From: Synechococcus sp. C9
Lineage (GTDB): Bacteria; Cyanobacteriota; Cyanobacteriia; Gloeomargaritales; Gloeomargaritaceae
DNA length: 64,000 bases
Assembly (NCBI RefSeq): GCF_022984075.1
Contig: NZ_JALAAD010000001.1
Span: 248,001-312,000 of the forward strand
Direction: 5' to 3'
Shown: in pieces, positions 5,904-54,955 of the stretch
Position numbering within the stretch: the first letter of the stretch is position 1
Layout: every line of letters begins with the position of its first letter
The notes under the pieces: model-generated
What the model saw: the letters and a program-made list of their open reading frames with translations, nothing else
Database searches by the model: none
Told to the model about the DNA's origin: nothing
Position numbers and translations under genes: made by a program

Positions 5904-7130
5904 TTGTTTCAGAAGACCGGTTATACCCTGCGGTGGCTGAAGGGGGTGGGGGAGGTGCCCGCCCAACAGTGGAATGCGCTGGCATTGCCCTTGGCGACTC
6001 CCTTTTTGGAGTGGGAGTGGTTGAACCACCTGGAGACCTCCGGCAGTGCCATTCCCCGCACCGGCTGGTTGCCCCGGCATTTGACCCTTTGGCGGGGAAA
6101 TACCCTGGTGGCGGCGGCTCCCCTCTACCTCAAGGGGCACAGCTACGGGGAATTTGTCTTTGACCACCAGTGGGCGGAATTAGCCTATCGGTTGGGGGAA
6201 CCCTACTATCCCAAGCTGGTGGGGATGACCCCTTTTACCCCGGCGGTGGGCTATCGGTTTTTGATAGCGCAGGGGGAAAGTGGGGTGAATGAGCTTTTTT
6301 TGGAAGCGATTGACCAGTTTTGCCAACGGGAGGGCATTTCCAGTTGTCATTTTTTATTTGCCGACCCGGAATGGAGCGAGGCGGTCGTGCCCCTGGGCTG
6401 GCATCGGTGGTTACATCACCATTACCTTTGGCAAAATCACCATTACCAGTCCTTTGAAGATTATTTAGCCCATTTCAATGCCAATCAGCGGCGCAATATC
6501 AAACGGGAACGGCAGGCGGTACACAAGGCGGGGATACGGATGCACACCTTGCACGGGGCGGAGATTCCCGAGCATTTTTTGAGTGTGATGTATGACCTGT
6601 ATAGCAACACCTGCGACCGATTTCTCTGGGGGAGTAAGTATTTAACGCGGCAATTTTTTCAAAGTTTATACCGGGATTATCGGCATCGCTTATTATTCAG
6701 TGTTGCCACTACCAACCAAGGGGGAAATGAGCCAGTGGGGATGGCTTTTTGTATCATCAAAAACCAGCAATTGTATGGGCGGTATTGGGGGGCATGGCAG
6801 GAGGTGGATTCCCTGCATTTTGAGACCTGTTATTACACTCCCATTGCCTGGGCGATTGACCAGGGGGTGCAGACGTTTGACCCTGGGGCGGGAGGACGGC
6901 ACAAGAAACGGCGGGGTTTTTGGGCAACTCCTAATTTCAGCCTGCACCGATTTTATACCCACCGGTTGGGAGCGATTTTGCCGGAATATATTCACCAGAC
7001 CAACGAATATACGATCCAGGAAATTCAGGCAATCAACGAAAACATTCCGCTCAAAGCGACTCCCCCCCAAACCCAGGTGGCGGGGATGACCCTTTCCATC
7101 CATGAGGAAACCGAAGAGGGAAATGATTAA
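5904..7130 (+). CDS. peptidogalycan-type GNAT acyltransferase (DUF482-like)
   Basis: A 408-residue protein of the PF04339/FemAB-related type. Supporting signatures are 'PFLEWEWLNHLETSGSA', 'PLYLKGHSYGEFVFDHQWA', 'NANQRRNIKRER' and 'FDPGAGGRHKKRRGF', which recur in this family. The double acyltransferase fold suggests transfer of an amino-acyl or acyl group, but donor and acceptor are unknown. The start codon is TTG at 5904; no ATG occurs earlier in frame and the next internal Met would remove conserved sequence. Upstream DNA is AT-rich and should hold the promoter. The last 30 residues are Thr/Gln-rich and may be disordered. Confidence 0.78.
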   Translation: MFQKTGYTLRWLKGVGEVPAQQWNALALPLATPFLEWEWLNHLETSGSAIPRTGWLPRHLTLWRGNTLVAAAPLYLKGHSYGEFVFDHQWAELAYRLGEPYYPKLVGMTPFTPAVGYRFLIAQGESGVNELFLEAIDQFCQREGISSCHFLFADPEWSEAVVPLGWHRWLHHHYLWQNHHYQSFEDYLAHFNANQRRNIKRERQAVHKAGIRMHTLHGAEIPEHFLSVMYDLYSNTCDRFLWGSKYLTRQFFQSLYRDYRHRLLFSVATTNQGGNEPVGMAFCIIKNQQLYGRYWGAWQEVDSLHFETCYYTPIAWAIDQGVQTFDPGAGGRHKKRRGFWATPNFSLHRFYTHRLGAILPEYIHQTNEYTIQEIQAINENIPLKATPPQTQVAGMTLSIHEETEEGND

Positions 7131-7164
7131 TTAATGCTTTCAATAAATCCCGATAATCCATAGG

Positions 7165-7304
7165 CTAGAACTAAGATGATGTAGTGCTGTGACCTTTGGC
7201 TTTCTATAGTCTTTTAAGTAGTTATGGGATGCAGTTAAAACTGACTTGCCATAGGGGAATTATGCCAAATTTTCAGAAACAATCAGTGACTCTTTGGGGG
7301 CGAT
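7165..7304. repeat. direct repeat, left copy, flanking the toxin-antitoxin module
   Basis: About 140 bp that recur at 8158-8297. The copies share 'gacctttggct' and 'actgacttgccatagg' blocks; a 56-bp core (7240-7295 and 8233-8288) looks identical, while the outer part has small changes and a short indel. The toxin-antitoxin genes lie between the copies. Confidence 0.85.
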
Positions 7305-7352
7305 AAGATGATTGATGTGGGGGTGATTCCTGAAGATTAGGGATTGGTATGC

Positions 7353-7358
7353 TATAAT
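7353..7358 (+). promoter_or_regulatory. -10 promoter box for the toxin-antitoxin pair
   Basis: A perfect TATAAT lies 34 bases before the antitoxin ATG, in AT-rich DNA. A weak -35 candidate is present upstream (7332-7340). This is a sequence-only prediction. Confidence 0.5.
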
Positions 7359-7391
7359 TAGGGAAAAATTTTTATGTTCTAGGATAAAACG

Positions 7392-7589
7392 ATGCAAATC
7401 TTAATTGACATTCCTGACTCGCTCTCTACTGAAAAGATTGATCAAATTATTGAAATGATTAAGAATCAATTAAACAATGAATCTGTTTCTATCAGAGTAG
7501 AAAAAGTGAAGCCTCGAAAAGTTTTTGCTCATCGTTTTGAAGTAGAGCAAATCAATATATCTAGTCGAGAATCTCTGCATGAGAGATAG
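7392..7589 (+). CDS. antitoxin of a PIN-domain toxin-antitoxin pair
   Basis: A 65-residue protein that starts MQILIDIPDSLSTEKIDQI and ends SRESLHER. The N-terminal strand-helix part ('ILIDIPDSLSTEKIDQIIEM') resembles small DNA-binding antitoxins, and the C-terminal half is charged, as expected for a toxin-neutralising tail. I cannot name the antitoxin family. Its 3' end overlaps the toxin start by 11 bases, which implies translational coupling. Base composition is far more AT-rich than the neighbours, a sign of transfer. Role is inferred from position next to a PIN protein. Confidence 0.7.
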   Translation: MQILIDIPDSLSTEKIDQIIEMIKNQLNNESVSIRVEKVKPRKVFAHRFEVEQINISSRESLHER

Positions 7590-7989
7590 AGTCTTTATTG
7601 ATACTAATATTTGGGTGTACTCTCATCTCAAACAAAAAGATGACCGTAAATCTGATATTGCCACCTCATTGTTAGAAAATCTACCTACATTGGTGATCAG
7701 TACTCAAGTTTTGAGTGAATACTACAGTGCAATGCTCAAGAATAAGGTTCCAGATCACCTAATCCAAGAGAATCTGGAGGTAATGATTAGCGTGTCCGAA
7801 GTTCAAGTTATTCAAATCAGCACTATCAGACTTTGCCATCGCCTAAAAATAAATAACGGTTTATCCTATTGGGACAGCTTGATTATGGCTAGTGCGATTG
7901 AGTCCAATTGTCAGTATTTGTATTCTGAAGATATGCAAAAAAATCAGATTATTGATAAACAAGTCCAAATTATTAATCCATTTCAATAG
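7579..7989 (+). CDS. VapC-like PIN-domain ribonuclease toxin
   Basis: A 136-residue PIN-domain protein. The acidic active-site set is complete: D8 in 'VFIDTNIW', E47 in 'QVLSEYY', D99 in 'LSYWDSLI' and D118 in 'LYSEDM'. PIN toxins bind Mg or Mn through these residues and cut RNA, often tRNA, when the antitoxin is lost. The RNA target cannot be told from sequence. It overlaps the antitoxin gene and shares its AT-rich composition. Together with the flanking direct repeats this looks like an acquired module. Confidence 0.85.
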   Translation: MRDRVFIDTNIWVYSHLKQKDDRKSDIATSLLENLPTLVISTQVLSEYYSAMLKNKVPDHLIQENLEVMISVSEVQVIQISTIRLCHRLKINNGLSYWDSLIMASAIESNCQYLYSEDMQKNQIIDKQVQIINPFQ

Positions 7990-8009
7990 TTATAGGGAAT
8001 CTCTATTTA

Positions 8010-8127
8010 GGGCACTTCTATAAATTTAAAGTTAGCGGTCGCAGGGGGGTACCCCCGCCCTTGGTTCTGTGTAATCTGAGCATTTTAGCGAAATAATCTT
8101 CCAGTGGTGACAATAAATAGAGGTACC
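8010..8127. repeat. dispersed miniature element (type A)
   Basis: A 118-bp copy with inverted ends: GGGCACTTCTA on the left and TAGAGGTACC on the right. Inside it carries the family hallmark, a 'ggtcgcaggggggtacccccg' type G/C hairpin next to 'ccttggttctg', and 'agcgaaataatcttccagtgg'. No coding capacity. Confidence 0.75.
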
Positions 8128-8157
8128 TAATAGTCACTTAAACAATTACACTAAAAA

Positions 8158-8297
8158 CTAGGACGGGGTAGTGTTGCGACCTTTGGCTTGCGATAGTTTT
8201 TTAAGCAGTTATAGAATACAGTTAAAATAAAAACTGACTTGCCATAGGGGAATTATGCCAAATTTTCAGAAACAATCAGTGACTCTTTAGGGGCTAT
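8158..8297. repeat. direct repeat, right copy, flanking the toxin-antitoxin module
   Basis: Second copy of the repeat at 7165-7304. After the shared core this copy continues into an open frame (8248-8415) that the left copy loses after about 14 codons, so the right copy may hold the older sequence. Confidence 0.85.
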
Positions 8298-8415
8298 CGC
8301 AATCCTCATTCTCGCCTTGGTGATTATCAATAATGCGGGTATTATTCTCAATAGCCATGAGTTAATATATGAAAAAATGACAATTCCCCAGAACGTTCCC
8401 CCTGGTTTATCCTAG
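8248..8415 (+). pseudogene. possible remnant of a small membrane protein
   Basis: An open frame of 55 codons without an ATG near its 5' end. It contains a strongly hydrophobic run ('SLGAIAILILALVIINNAG') that could span a membrane, followed by a polar tail. A TAG stop precedes the frame at 8245. It may be a broken gene, a gene with an unusual start, or chance. It begins inside the direct repeat, and the left repeat copy holds only its first residues. Confidence 0.3.
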
Positions 8416-8446
8416 GGACAACCACGATAAGTGCATTGTTTTGCCC

Positions 8447-9931
8447 ATGAAGCTGGGGGATTTATTAAATTCCATCACGCCCTATCTTCCGCCCCTCGCT
8501 GGGCAGAACCCCCTCTGGCAGGCATCGGTGACCGGGATTACCTGTGATTCCCGCCAATGCCAACCGGGGATGGTGTTTGTGGGTTTGCCCGGTACCCAGG
8601 TGGATGGGGGGGACTTTTGGCCGCAAGCCCTGGCCAATGGTGCGATTGTTGCCCTGGTCACACCCCGCCCGGATTTGCCCCCCCAGGTACTGCCGGTGTC
8701 GGACATTGCCCAAGCCTGTGGGGAATTGGCCGCCGCATTTTATGGTTATCCCTGCCGGTGTTTGCAAATGGTGGGGGTCACGGGTACCAACGGCAAAACC
8801 ACCACCACCCACATTCTGGAATTTTTATTACAAAATGCTTTGGGAAATACAGCTTTATTAGGTACATTGTACAACCGCTGGCCGGGTTATACCCAAACGG
8901 CGAGTCACACCACCCCCTTGGCGGTGGAGTTGCAACGGGATTTGGCGCAGGCGGTGCAAGCGGGCTGTCGGGTGGCGGTGATGGAGGTAAGTTCCCATGC
9001 CCTGGCGCAGGGACGGGTGGCGGGGTGTGCCTACGATGGGGCGGTTTTTACCAACCTCACCCAGGATCATCTGGATTTTCACCGGACGATGGAAAACTAC
9101 TTTCAGGCGAAGGCACTCTTGTTTGAACCCAACCTGTTGCGGGGGCGGGCGATTGTCAACCAGGATGACCCCTACGGGCAACGGTTGTTACGGGAATTAG
9201 AGCAACGCCATACCCCCCGGTGGAGCTACAGTGCGCTGGGGCAACCGGCGGATATAACGGTTCAGCAGGTGGACTATACGCCAGCGGGAATTACTGCCAC
9301 CATGACCACTCCCGTTGGGGGTGGGATGCTTCGGATTCCCCTGATGGGGCAATTTAATTTGAGCAATACCTTGGCGGCGGTGGGGGCGGCTTTGCATCTG
9401 GGCGTTCGGTTTGAGCAAATTCAAGAAATCTTGCCCAAATTTCCGGGGGTGCCGGGGCGGATGGAGCGGGTGCGGGTGTGCCCGGAGCAGGAGATTACCG
9501 TCGTGGTGGACTATGCCCATACCCCGGATGGGTTGGCGAATGGTCTGCGGGCGTTGCGTCCGTTTGTGGGCGGGCGGTTGATCTGCGTGTTTGGCTGTGG
9601 TGGCGACCGGGATCGCACTAAACGTCCCATGATGGGCAAAATTGCCGCCGAATTGAGCGATATGGTCGTCGTTACCTCGGATAATCCCCGCACGGAAGAC
9701 CCCCAGCGGATCATCCAGGATATTCTGCAAGGCATTCCTGGCACGCCCTTGGTGATCCCGGATCGGCAGGAGGCAATCCACCGAGCGATTCACATGGCAC
9801 AGCCTGGGGACGGAGTAATGATCGCCGGGAAAGGTCACGAGGATTACCAAATTTTAGGCACGACCAAAATCCATTTTGACGACCGGGAAGAGGCGACCAT
9901 TGCGCTGAACAATCGTTACAGTCGGGGTTGA
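8447..9931 (+). CDS. murE: UDP-N-acetylmuramoyl-tripeptide synthetase, meso-DAP type (MurE)
   Basis: This cytoplasmic ligase adds meso-diaminopimelate to UDP-MurNAc-L-Ala-D-Glu in peptidoglycan synthesis, using ATP. The 494-residue protein has the three Mur domains: N-terminal UDP-sugar binding ('[14 protein letters not shown]'), the central ATPase with P-loop '[13 protein letters not shown]' and '[12 protein letters not shown]', and a C-terminal domain with 'DNPRTEDP'. The DNPR motif marks specificity for meso-DAP rather than lysine. I prefer ATG 8447 to the TTG two codons earlier. Its 3' end overlaps the convergent FAH-family gene by 16 bases. Confidence 0.95.
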
Positions 9932-16962: not shown

Positions 16963-17811
16963 TTACTCTGCCAGAGCCGCTGGCATTTCCACCGGGGCAA
17001 TTGTATAGCTTCCGTAATTACGCAAACAACTGGTTTCCTGCGCTAATGCCGCCAACGCCTGCGCAATCCGGGGCTGGCACTGGGCACCCTCTAAATCCAC
17101 TGAGAAAAAATACTCCCCCAGGGAACGGCGGGTGGGACGGGATTCAATGCGGCTGAGATTGATCCCCGCCTGGGCAAAATGCGCCAATGCCCGCACCAAG
17201 GCTCCCGGTGCGTTTTCCGGCACACTAAACGCTAAGGTGGTGTGGCTCCCCTGCCGGTGAGGATTGGTTCCAATGACCCAAAAACGGGTGAGATTATCTG
17301 CCGCCAAATCCACCGCCAAGACGGGTAAATGCGCTAACTCAGCCGCCCGGGGGGAAGCAATCGCCGCCGCCGCCGGTTCCCGCTGGACGTACTGCAAGGC
17401 TTCGCTCGTAGAACGGGTGGGCAACCAGGGCACATGGGGTAAATGCTCCTCCAGCCAGTACTGACATTGTCCGAGGGCTTGGGGATGGGAATACACCCGT
17501 TGAATCTGGTTCATTTCCGAACAGTGGCTAATCAGGACGTGGGCAATGGGCAGGATCAACCCCTGCTGAATGTACAAATCCGGCAACCGCCAGAGCAAAT
17601 CCAACGTGGTCGTGACGCTCCCTTCCAGGGAATTTTCCACCGGCACCACCCCGTAGTCCGCCTCCCCCTGCGCCACGCTGTGCAACACCTGGGCAATCGT
17701 ACTGGTGGGCAACCATTGCGGACGCTCCCAGCGCTCCCCAAACCGATGGGCAACCGTTTCACTGTTGGTGCCCGTAGGTCCGAGATAGGCAATGCGGGGA
17801 TCAGCAAACAT
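16963..17811 (-). CDS. pheA: prephenate dehydratase
   Basis: A 282-residue enzyme that converts prephenate to phenylpyruvate in phenylalanine synthesis. The catalytic domain opens with 'IAYLGPTGTNSETVAHRF' and has 'GVVPVENSLEGSV' and the conserved 'TRFWVIG' (Thr-Arg-Phe) motif. The C-terminal regulatory ACT domain carries the ESRP motif ('LSRIESRPTRRSLGEYFF'), where phenylalanine binds as feedback inhibitor. There is no chorismate mutase domain, so it is the monofunctional form. It is divergent from the DUF1997 gene. Confidence 0.93.
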   Translation of the reverse strand: MFADPRIAYLGPTGTNSETVAHRFGERWERPQWLPTSTIAQVLHSVAQGEADYGVVPVENSLEGSVTTTLDLLWRLPDLYIQQGLILPIAHVLISHCSEMNQIQRVYSHPQALGQCQYWLEEHLPHVPWLPTRSTSEALQYVQREPAAAAIASPRAAELAHLPVLAVDLAADNLTRFWVIGTNPHRQGSHTTLAFSVPENAPGALVRALAHFAQAGINLSRIESRPTRRSLGEYFFSVDLEGAQCQPRIAQALAALAQETSCLRNYGSYTIAPVEMPAALAE

Positions 17812-17869
17812 ACGGAGTTGGGGGCATTCAGTGTTAAGATAATTTACAACGTCAGTAATTAGGTGTTTT

Positions 17870-18445
17870 ATGTTGGTACATTTTGCGGCTCAGGAATCGG
17901 TGACCGTGCCCGTGCCGCGCCAACCTATTCCTATTGAACACTACCTGCGCCAACCCCAGCGATTGGTCTATGCGATTGCCGACCCCCAGCAGGTGGAAGT
18001 GTTGGCTGACCAGGTGTACCGACTGAAAATGCGCCCCCGCAATTTTTTTTCGTTTACCATCCAGCCCGTGGTGGATATGCGGGTGTGGACGGAAGCTTCT
18101 AATATTTTGCACATCCAGTCCGTCGGCTGTGAAATCCGGGGCGTGCCCTACATTGACCGCCGGTTTCGGCTGAATTTAACGGGTACCCTACAGGCGGTGC
18201 GTTCGTCCCGGGCTTCCTCCTTGGTGGGGCAAGCCCAGTTGCAGGTGGAAGTGGAGGTGCCCCCGCCTTTGAATATGATGCCTAAGATCATTGTGGAAGC
18301 CGCCGGGGACAGCCTGCTCAGCAGTGTGTTGGGGTTGATCAAACAGCAATTGACCCGGCAATTGATTACCGATTATCAGCAATGGGTCGCCAGCACCACC
18401 CAGGCGGACGCCAACCCCCAAGGTCATCTGGTTTGGGAAACCTGA
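17870..18445 (+). CDS. DUF1997-family protein, copy 1
   Basis: A 191-residue soluble protein of the cyanobacterial/plastid DUF1997 type. Typical stretches are 'LRQPQRLVYAIADPQQVEVL', 'VYRLKMRPRNFFSFTIQPVVDMRVW' in part, and a C-terminal helix 'LGLIKQQLTRQLITDYQQW'. The fold may be lipid- or pigment-binding, but no activity is known. A second member lies at 19035 on the other side of rnhB. The last 22 bases overlap the 3' end of rnhB. Confidence 0.72.
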   Translation: MLVHFAAQESVTVPVPRQPIPIEHYLRQPQRLVYAIADPQQVEVLADQVYRLKMRPRNFFSFTIQPVVDMRVWTEASNILHIQSVGCEIRGVPYIDRRFRLNLTGTLQAVRSSRASSLVGQAQLQVEVEVPPPLNMMPKIIVEAAGDSLLSSVLGLIKQQLTRQLITDYQQWVASTTQADANPQGHLVWET

Positions 18446-22138: not shown

Positions 22139-22308
22139 TCGGTAATGATATGAGCTTGCTTAATTCTTACTTAAATTTACTTAAGGACACCATTATTCGT
22201 TCAAAATTTAGAATCTATTAAAGAATCTGGGGTTACAGGGGCACCGTCTGGTTTTGGGTAACATAGTTATTTTAGCGAAATAACTTGCTAGTGGTGCCTG
22301 CCAATAGA

Positions 22309-22457
22309 GGGCACTTCTAAAAATAGGTCGCAGGGGCGTAGTCCCCGTCAAAGAAGCACCTGCGGTCTATGGTTCTCGATAGCCTCCGTGGCGTAGCCAT
22401 TAGTATGGGCATTTTAGCGAAATAATCTTCCAGTGGTGGCAATAAATAGAGGTGCCC
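22309..22457. repeat. dispersed miniature element (type A)
   Basis: A 149-bp copy bounded by GGGCACTTCTA and its inverted partner TAGAGGTGCCC. It contains 'ggtcgcaggggcgtagtcccc' and 'agcgaaataatcttccagtgg'. The interval 22139-22642 holds no gene; a related degenerate piece lies just before (22235-22308) and another after it (22490-22530). Confidence 0.8.
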
Positions 22458-24164: not shown

Positions 24165-24328
24165 GGGCACCTCTATTTATTTGCACCCATTGAAGGTTAT
24201 CTCGCTGGAATGCCCATCCCATTGAGAACCAAAGCCGGGGGCTACGCCCCTGCGACCTATTTTTAGAAGTACCCTATAACAAAGCATTACTTGGATAGCA
24301 CTACCCTGCAACTGCTGTTTTGAATTGT
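24165..24328. repeat. tandem 164-bp unit 1 (type A element plus 54 bp)
   Basis: First of two tandem units. Positions 24165-24274 are a type A miniature element (GGGCACCTCTA ... TAGAAGTACCC) and 24275-24328 are a 54-bp unique tail ending 'gctgttttgaattgt'. The next unit starts at the very next base. The whole 23801-24741 gap holds these units, one type B element and one tiny open frame, but no recognisable gene. Confidence 0.85.
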
Positions 24329-24492
24329 GGGCACCTCTATTTATTGGCACCCCTCGAAGGTTATCTCGTTAGAATGCTCATGTTATCGAAAACCAAGGAC
24401 GGGGGCAAAGCCCCTGCGACCTATTTTTAGAAGTACCCTATAACAAAGCATTACTTGGATAGCACTACCCTGCAACTGCTGTTTTGAATTGT
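24329..24492. repeat. tandem 164-bp unit 2 (type A element plus 54 bp)
   Basis: Second tandem unit, the same 164-bp length as the first. The 54-bp tails look identical, while the element parts (24329-24438 against 24165-24274) differ at many positions inside, though not in the 'cccctgcgacctatttttag' right end. Confidence 0.85.
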
Positions 24493-26767: not shown

Positions 26768-26891
26768 GTCCCATTCCCCCCATCAGTAACTTTTTGTAAT
26801 TATTGGTAATTATAGCGATTCTCCATCCCTTGCCAACGCTTTTCTTGCGCAACAGGTGAGGAGGATTAAATAAATCTAAAAAATGGCTTCA

Positions 26892-26981
26892 GGGCACCTC
26901 CCTAAATGTAACGGGAGTGGTCACAGGGGAGCATCCCCCGCCCTTGGTTCTGGTATGGGTTGGCTCAAATAAGAAATGCCC
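26892..26981. repeat. dispersed miniature element, short degenerate copy
   Basis: A 90-bp copy bounded by GGGCACCTCCCTA and 'aagaaatgccc', with 'cacaggggagcatcccccgcccttggttctg' like internal sequence in family order. It lies between the phosphoribosyltransferase and mscL genes. Confidence 0.6.
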
Positions 26982-29686: not shown

Positions 29687-29884
29687 GCGAAAATTGGGGT
29701 TATAGCACTCTCATGTGAATTGTGAGTATAAATTTTAGTTCTCCATCTGTGAGCATCCTCATTAAATAAATTTAGAATAGGGGTCGCAGGGAAACTCCCA
29801 CGCATTTGGTTCTGTAAAATTTCTGTTCCTTAATTAAGTGAGGTTGCGGGGCATAATTGGGTTGTGATTCTGACCGACTTCAAT

Positions 29885-30356: not shown

Positions 30357-30461
30357 GAACTTCTATAGCAATCCTACTTGATTAGTGAACAGAGATTCCC
30401 CAGAACCAAGGACGGGGACGGTGCCCCTGCGACTGCTAACTTTGAATTGATAGAGATGCCC
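30357..30461. repeat. dispersed miniature element (mixed type)
   Basis: A copy of about 105 bp with left end 'gaacttctatagcaatccta', combining the type A and type B ends, and right end TAGAGATGCCC. It includes 'accaaggacggggacggtgc' and 'cccctgcgact'. Confidence 0.65.
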
Positions 30462-30496
30462 TGTAGTTAAAATATTTTAGGGCAATTTTAATTTTT

Positions 30497-36723: not shown

Positions 36724-36833
36724 GGGCACCTCTATTTATTTACACCCATTGAACTTTATCTCACTGGAATACCCATACTATCAAAAACCAGAGACGGGGG
36801 CTACGCCCCTGCGACCTATTTTTAGAAGTGCCC
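36724..36833. repeat. dispersed miniature element (type A)
   Basis: A 110-bp copy with well-kept ends GGGCACCTCTA and TAGAAGTGCCC. It includes 'cgggggctacgcccctgcga', a strong hairpin. It sits 30 bases upstream of the permease start, where promoter or operon partner would be expected. Confidence 0.85.
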
Positions 36834-36859
36834 TAAATTTATTTTAATTTTATTAAAAA

Positions 36860-54735: not shown

Positions 54736-54955
54736 TTTTATACTGTTGTGCAATCTCAGATTACAGTCTATTTATCAATTAAAGGATACAAAAAGCCTCC
54801 ATCATTCTCAAGGCTCAGAATAATTGACTCACGGCAAGTGGGGTTCAACTGTATCCCATAAGCACTTAAAAGACTGTATCATTGAATTTATGGAAGGGAT
54901 TAATTCTAGTCTTTGATAAAATGAGAAGAGGCAGTGATTAATAGGAGCTAAAAGT

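Follow-up and report, generated by a model that had tools for sequence, protein, structure and literature searches.

An ordinary, still-conserved bacterial toxin–antitoxin (TA) pair of a known kind is situated at a rearrangement point in the chromosome of Synechococcus sp. C9, where it was probably stranded at a breakpoint between a femAB-like gene and murE after having been part of a type I restriction and multi-TA island of the ancestor that this strain shares with the Gloeomargaritales cyanobacterium VI4D9. The window, i.e., the whole stretch of 64,000 nucleotides that was analysed, covers C1:248001-312000 of a 2.96-Mb genome in four contigs, and VI4D9 was the nearest relative compared. The pair occupies an A+T-rich spacer of about 1.3 kb (7118-8381, 35.8% G+C) reaching from the femAB-like gene to murE, and is bracketed there by two direct repeats, L and R (Table 1). 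The original prediction had described an AT-rich PIN-domain pair between two copies of a 140-bp sequence, and this description was confirmed: L and R are identical at 122 of 140 ungapped columns of a gapped alignment, the toxin belongs to Pfam family PF01850, and the G+C content of the pair amounts to 33.9% compared with 54.6% in the window.

Table 1. Features of the femAB–murE spacer and its flanks (positions within the window).
Feature	Position	Strand	Remarks
femAB-like gene, left flank	5904-7130	+	Pfam FemAB_like, 455.8 bits
Left direct repeat L	7165-7304	+	Worn palindromic-element piece at ~7169-7200, then left ~60-75 bp of MITE-A from TA at ~7205
hsdS-start scar, 43 bp	7299-7341	+	88% to VI4D9 L088:5425-5467, first hsdS codons
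Antitoxin gene, 65 aa	7392-7589	+	ORF list; C-terminal SRESLHER motif
PIN-domain (VapC-like) toxin gene, 136 aa	7579-7989	+	Pfam PF01850; acidic D8, E47, D99, E117, D118 kept
MITE-B remnant	7991-8132	.	Inverted ends (arms), internal palindromic element
Right direct repeat R	8152-8297	+	Composite of L plus 6-bp insertion
MITE-C right part	8301-8371	+	Dispersed matches; earlier read as membrane-protein frame
murE leader and gene, right flank	8382-9931 (murE 8441-9931)	+	VI4D9 synteny from 8382

Judged from its protein family, the pair is predicted to be a VapBC-type (PIN-domain) type II module. It resembles such modules in the PF01850 domain with its acidic residues (43.4 bits, cut-off 23.6) and in the small upstream antitoxin gene, which overlaps the toxin gene by 11 bp in the ORF list, whereas it differs in that no match of the antitoxin to Pfam or NCBIfam families exceeded the cut-off and in that the toxin scored below the cut-off of TIGR00305 (28.1 bits, cut-off 29.15). 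In an alignment of 13 PIN sequences D8, T9, N10, D99, S100, E117 and D118 were kept, and E47 was nearly invariant. The only relative of the toxin with a solved structure that was found by sequence is PcrIIC1 (PDB 8wmm, E 5.3e-9), a CRISPR-associated helper protein, which is of equal length and has a similar SEDM...NPF C-terminal end. At 17 of 18 loci of PIN relatives an upstream ORF with a similar C-terminus was recognised by eye, and the remaining locus starts 31 bp before the toxin. These upstream ORFs, nearly all from other phyla, carry an R(E/D)-x-x-x-R-like C-terminal motif comparable by eye to SRESLHER in the window, and the related motif supports the pairing of antitoxin and toxin. The N-termini of these antitoxins look unrelated to one another (again by eye), which, in combination with the common C-terminal motif, suggests that their DNA-binding parts have been exchanged, a theme familiar among antitoxins. 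Scans for regulatory signals near the locus yielded five promoter sites against 4.7 expected by chance, and hence were uninformative, one terminator against 0.7 expected by chance, and two Rfam matches, both sub-threshold; TGCTATAAT was noticed by eye upstream of the antitoxin.

Comparison with the VI4D9 orthologues gave a dN/dS of 0.125 (dS 0.48) for the PIN gene and of 0.086 (dS 0.58) for the antitoxin, which is 89% identical. These low ratios (0.09-0.13), together with the conserved acidic residues of the PIN domain, indicate that the pair is a maintained module under purifying selection. The dS values of flanking core genes against the same relative were 0.52 for femAB, 0.24 for murE and 0.11 for an FAH-like gene, so that the TA pair lies near or just above them and a recent import is not needed to account for it.

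The junction at which the pair is found is, by gene order, a synteny breakpoint. Both femAB and murE were matched in all seven genus genomes, and they are adjacent in none of the six relatives, with which nucleotide synteny of the femAB side ends at 7093-7117. On a single contig the two genes were placed at 543 and 1603 kb in VI4D9, at 433 and 2080 kb in the relative G004 and at 38 and 428 kb in G003; in G001, G005 and G006 they are located on different contigs and femAB neighbours another gene, which we take to be FKBP-like. As femAB and murE are apart in all six relatives, the junction in the window is a breakpoint of the lineage's own. The FKBP-like gene adjoins femAB in five of the seven genomes, the exceptions being G004 and the genome studied here, in which its copy lies at 2.16 Mb (its places were obtained as antisense-translation matches, several of which contain stops; read on its proper strand, the ORF spans 3549-4088 of L113). 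At the reciprocal junction beside this copy no MITE was visible by eye, an argument against repeat-mediated exchange in its simplest form. A small ORF is present upstream of murE in VI4D9, G005 and G006, and here it has only a weak match elsewhere (E 7e-4).

That the module is foreign to the femAB–murE site is supported by the position of its orthologue in the nearest relative. Of 59 genomes searched, nine (among them the own genome) contain a PIN match, and VI4D9 (OV696605.1) possesses an orthologue with 90% amino acid identity (C1:1134490), which forms a TA pair directly upstream of hsdS (Methylase_S, 118.6 bits) at a locus other than femAB–murE. Window positions 7313-7985 share 86% of nucleotides with that pair over 675 columns, and between L and the antitoxin gene of the window a trace of the same neighbourhood is retained, namely the hsdS-start scar, whose translation, GDKMIDVGVIPED followed by a stop, corresponds to GYKMTEVGVIPEDW of the VI4D9 hsdS. 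A similar worn scar was seen by eye upstream of VI4D9's own antitoxin, so that the scar is probably older than the split from VI4D9. The only direct repeat around the VI4D9 pair is formed by two antitoxin paralogues, and a bracketing like that by L and R is absent there.

The VI4D9 locus (C1:1133.4-1136.2 kb, L088:3900-6675) is a crowded TA and restriction island, in which hsdS, the type I restriction specificity gene, is preceded by IS insertions and by several TA-like genes, namely two antitoxin paralogues, DUF2283 and remains of PIN genes. On contig C2 (16.7-18.0 kb) of the own genome a decayed relative of this island was found, with DUF2283, an antitoxin paralogue, the last PIN codons (17361-17489) and a shortened hsdS remnant, of which the tail lies at 17764-17943. 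The relative G004 displays a related antitoxin–PIN unit in two tandem copies about 1052 bp apart (C1:2746.8-2748.5 kb, L089:3336-5026), in which the first PIN gene contains an in-frame TAG and the ORF downstream of it is broken by a palindromic repeat; read from its sequence, this tandem is a TA unit caught in duplication and decay.

The direct repeats were analysed with regard to their composition and divergence. The alignment of L with R contains one 6-bp indel, and its longest identical run measures 59 bp; the long identical core of the original prediction thus exists, its length having been put slightly too low at 56 bp. When the bases of the region were shuffled 200 times, no exact direct repeat longer than 14 bp arose, and the similarity of L and R reached an E of about 1e-41 in a whole-genome search. 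Divergence is unevenly distributed, with 82% identity between 7169-7240 and 8156-8227 and 97% between 7237-7304 and 8230-8297 (offset 987-993 bp), or 16 mismatches among columns 1-67 compared with two among the remaining 73 (p 0.005 in a permutation test covering all split points), and this could fit gene conversion between the copies as well as other causes. The inner 60-75 bp or so of each repeat equal the left end of a dispersed element, MITE-A, from which both copies run into common non-MITE sequence, and upstream of the MITE-A part they have about 36 bp in common that resemble, by eye, a frequent palindromic element. In a search of the seven genomes with 8156-8380 the complete 140-bp composite was present in two copies only, L and R. 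Since the composite occurs only twice and includes common sequence outside MITE-A, L and R are best read as one local duplication and not as two independent insertions, i.e., as a true duplicate pair open to homologous recombination. In themselves the repeats are probably functionless, although RecA-dependent recombination between them could in principle remove the 990-bp unit.

Much of the remaining spacer consists of dispersed elements. When 7100-7400 was compared with the own genome, 23 matches were obtained, 21 of them elsewhere and most at query positions 106-166 or 106-179. The underlying MITE-A is an element of about 117 bp that starts with TACAGTCTTTTAAG, ends with ATAGACTGTA and carries no gene. 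Its full unit was matched 36 times in the own genome, at least 43 times in VI4D9 (the best 40 of 192 candidates were scored) and 12 times in G004, and had no match in the other four of the seven genus genomes searched. With its length, TA at both ends, CAGTCT inverted ends and many copies it is like MITEs derived from the IS630 family, and it was classed as an IS630-type MITE on account of a VI4D9 element with similar ends that carries part of a DDE_3 transposase (101 bits). The copies in L and R are unlike such MITEs in being left-end fragments inside a larger local duplicate. The original prediction had set its own reading against that of just another dispersed repeat, and this applies to the core, which is found many times without the module as MITE-A, but not to the full composite, which exists only as the L/R pair. 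At 54762-54878 of the window, distant from the TA pair, lies a copy of MITE-A that does not differ from the query unit. MITE-B, a remnant of which follows the toxin gene, was matched in every one of the seven genus genomes, at least 42-46 times in each of four and once in each of three among the matches listed. Further pieces of MITE-B, several beside palindromic elements, are scattered over the window (22269-22457, 24169-24421, 26888-26952, 29766-29815, 30393-30462 and 36728-36837).

Several other explanations of the bracketed pair had to be weighed. An insertion of the module at one site, with duplication of about 140 bp of target DNA, was one of two readings in the original prediction; it would agree with two direct-orientation copies flanking the module and with a composite found nowhere else in seven genomes, but the module contains no mobility gene, L ends in the hsdS scar whereas R continues into MITE-C, and the femAB and murE flanks of VI4D9 are both without the 140-bp repeat. 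Target duplications made by transposases are generally far shorter than 140 bp, which likewise counts against it, and with femAB and murE apart in the six relatives no ancestral target is seen in which a duplication could be read; in its simple form this reading is considered unlikely. The second reading, a cassette that recombination could delete, would imply Campbell-like recombination of a circle or donor, bearing one 140-bp copy and the TA pair, into a resident copy, and would be reversible in the same way. Part of it stands, inasmuch as L and R are a duplicate pair on which homologous recombination could act and their 97%/82% mosaic, with its 59-bp identical run, suggests past exchange between them. 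However, the genomes searched showed neither an empty site nor a donor locus nor a free copy, plasmid records gave no match to 7000-8500, and the VI4D9 pair has no such repeat beside it, so that an origin by this route seems rather improbable. A composite element, in which an IS630-family transposase acting in trans moved the pair by means of two flanking MITE-A copies, would draw on the MITE-A ends and TA target that match the IS630-type element of VI4D9, yet the right inverted end of MITE-A is missing from L as well as from R, no outward ends bracket the module, and the duplication takes in DNA outside MITE-A. The missing right ends largely refute any composite transposon or MITE-flanked cassette, and this explanation is regarded as very improbable.

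The original prediction had also proposed that the insertion split a small membrane-protein gene, and the observations behind it are correct: to the right of the module, after R, there is an open frame (GNYAKFSETISDSLGAIAILILALVIINN...), hydrophobic and some 50 codons long, and in the left copy it is broken off after SDSLGAI. The frame lies, however, in the right part of MITE-C, a unit of about 120 bp with inverted ends (GGGAACCTCTATTTATTG...AATTAATAGAGGTGCCC, from 18 VI4D9 copies read), and this part recurs five more times in the own genome (C1:698099, 1658082, 2277628 and 2277706, C2:55611, the two at 2277 kb only with E 0.016) and in at least 40 matches in VI4D9 (the best 40 of 145 candidates being scored). 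No ATG, GTG or TTG precedes the hydrophobic stretch, the ORF finder reported nothing of at least 40 aa there, and no Pfam match was obtained; a net frame-shifting indel was counted in seven of 23 aligned copies, a weak test on a rough alignment in which some cases may be alignment-end effects. As a dispersed MITE-C frame without a start codon, it led us to reject the membrane-protein gene, and a split of a real one is hardly credible.

The preferred explanation, stranding of a pair from an ancestral island, may be outlined as follows. A type II pair, in which a PIN ribonuclease toxin would be bound by the C-terminus of its short antitoxin, would have had its ancestral home in a type I restriction and multi-TA island before the split from VI4D9, and would have been left stranded at the new chromosomal junction between femAB and murE. 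The spacers on both sides are debris of MITEs and palindromes, of which L and R are one local duplication. Junction and duplication may have arisen when repeat-rich DNA recombined or was miscopied, for instance at GGC(G/T)AT, which is common to the end of the repeat and the start of hsdS, and not through dedicated transposition of the TA pair. Going by its family, the toxin would be a VapC-type RNase held by its antitoxin, loss of the pair would be punished and the pair would therefore persist; deletion through the 59-bp identity is conceivable, and addiction would oppose it. An alternative scenario, in which TA pairs of the clade's defence islands escape as minimal cassettes with nothing but an hsdS scar, land in MITE debris at a rearrangement point and become deletable, self-guarding cassettes through recombination-homogenised repeats, is held to be unlikely. 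Among the titles and abstract openings consulted, none described a PIN pair bracketed by repeats of this kind, and none of the papers searched contained both Gloeomargarita and toxin-antitoxin.

If the preferred explanation holds, a TA pair can outlive its restriction island while purifying selection continues to act on it at a new junction, where the scar of an hsdS start records its origin. The locus is also a warning that short open frames and direct repeats in the MITE-rich spacers of such cyanobacterial genomes are mostly repeat debris.
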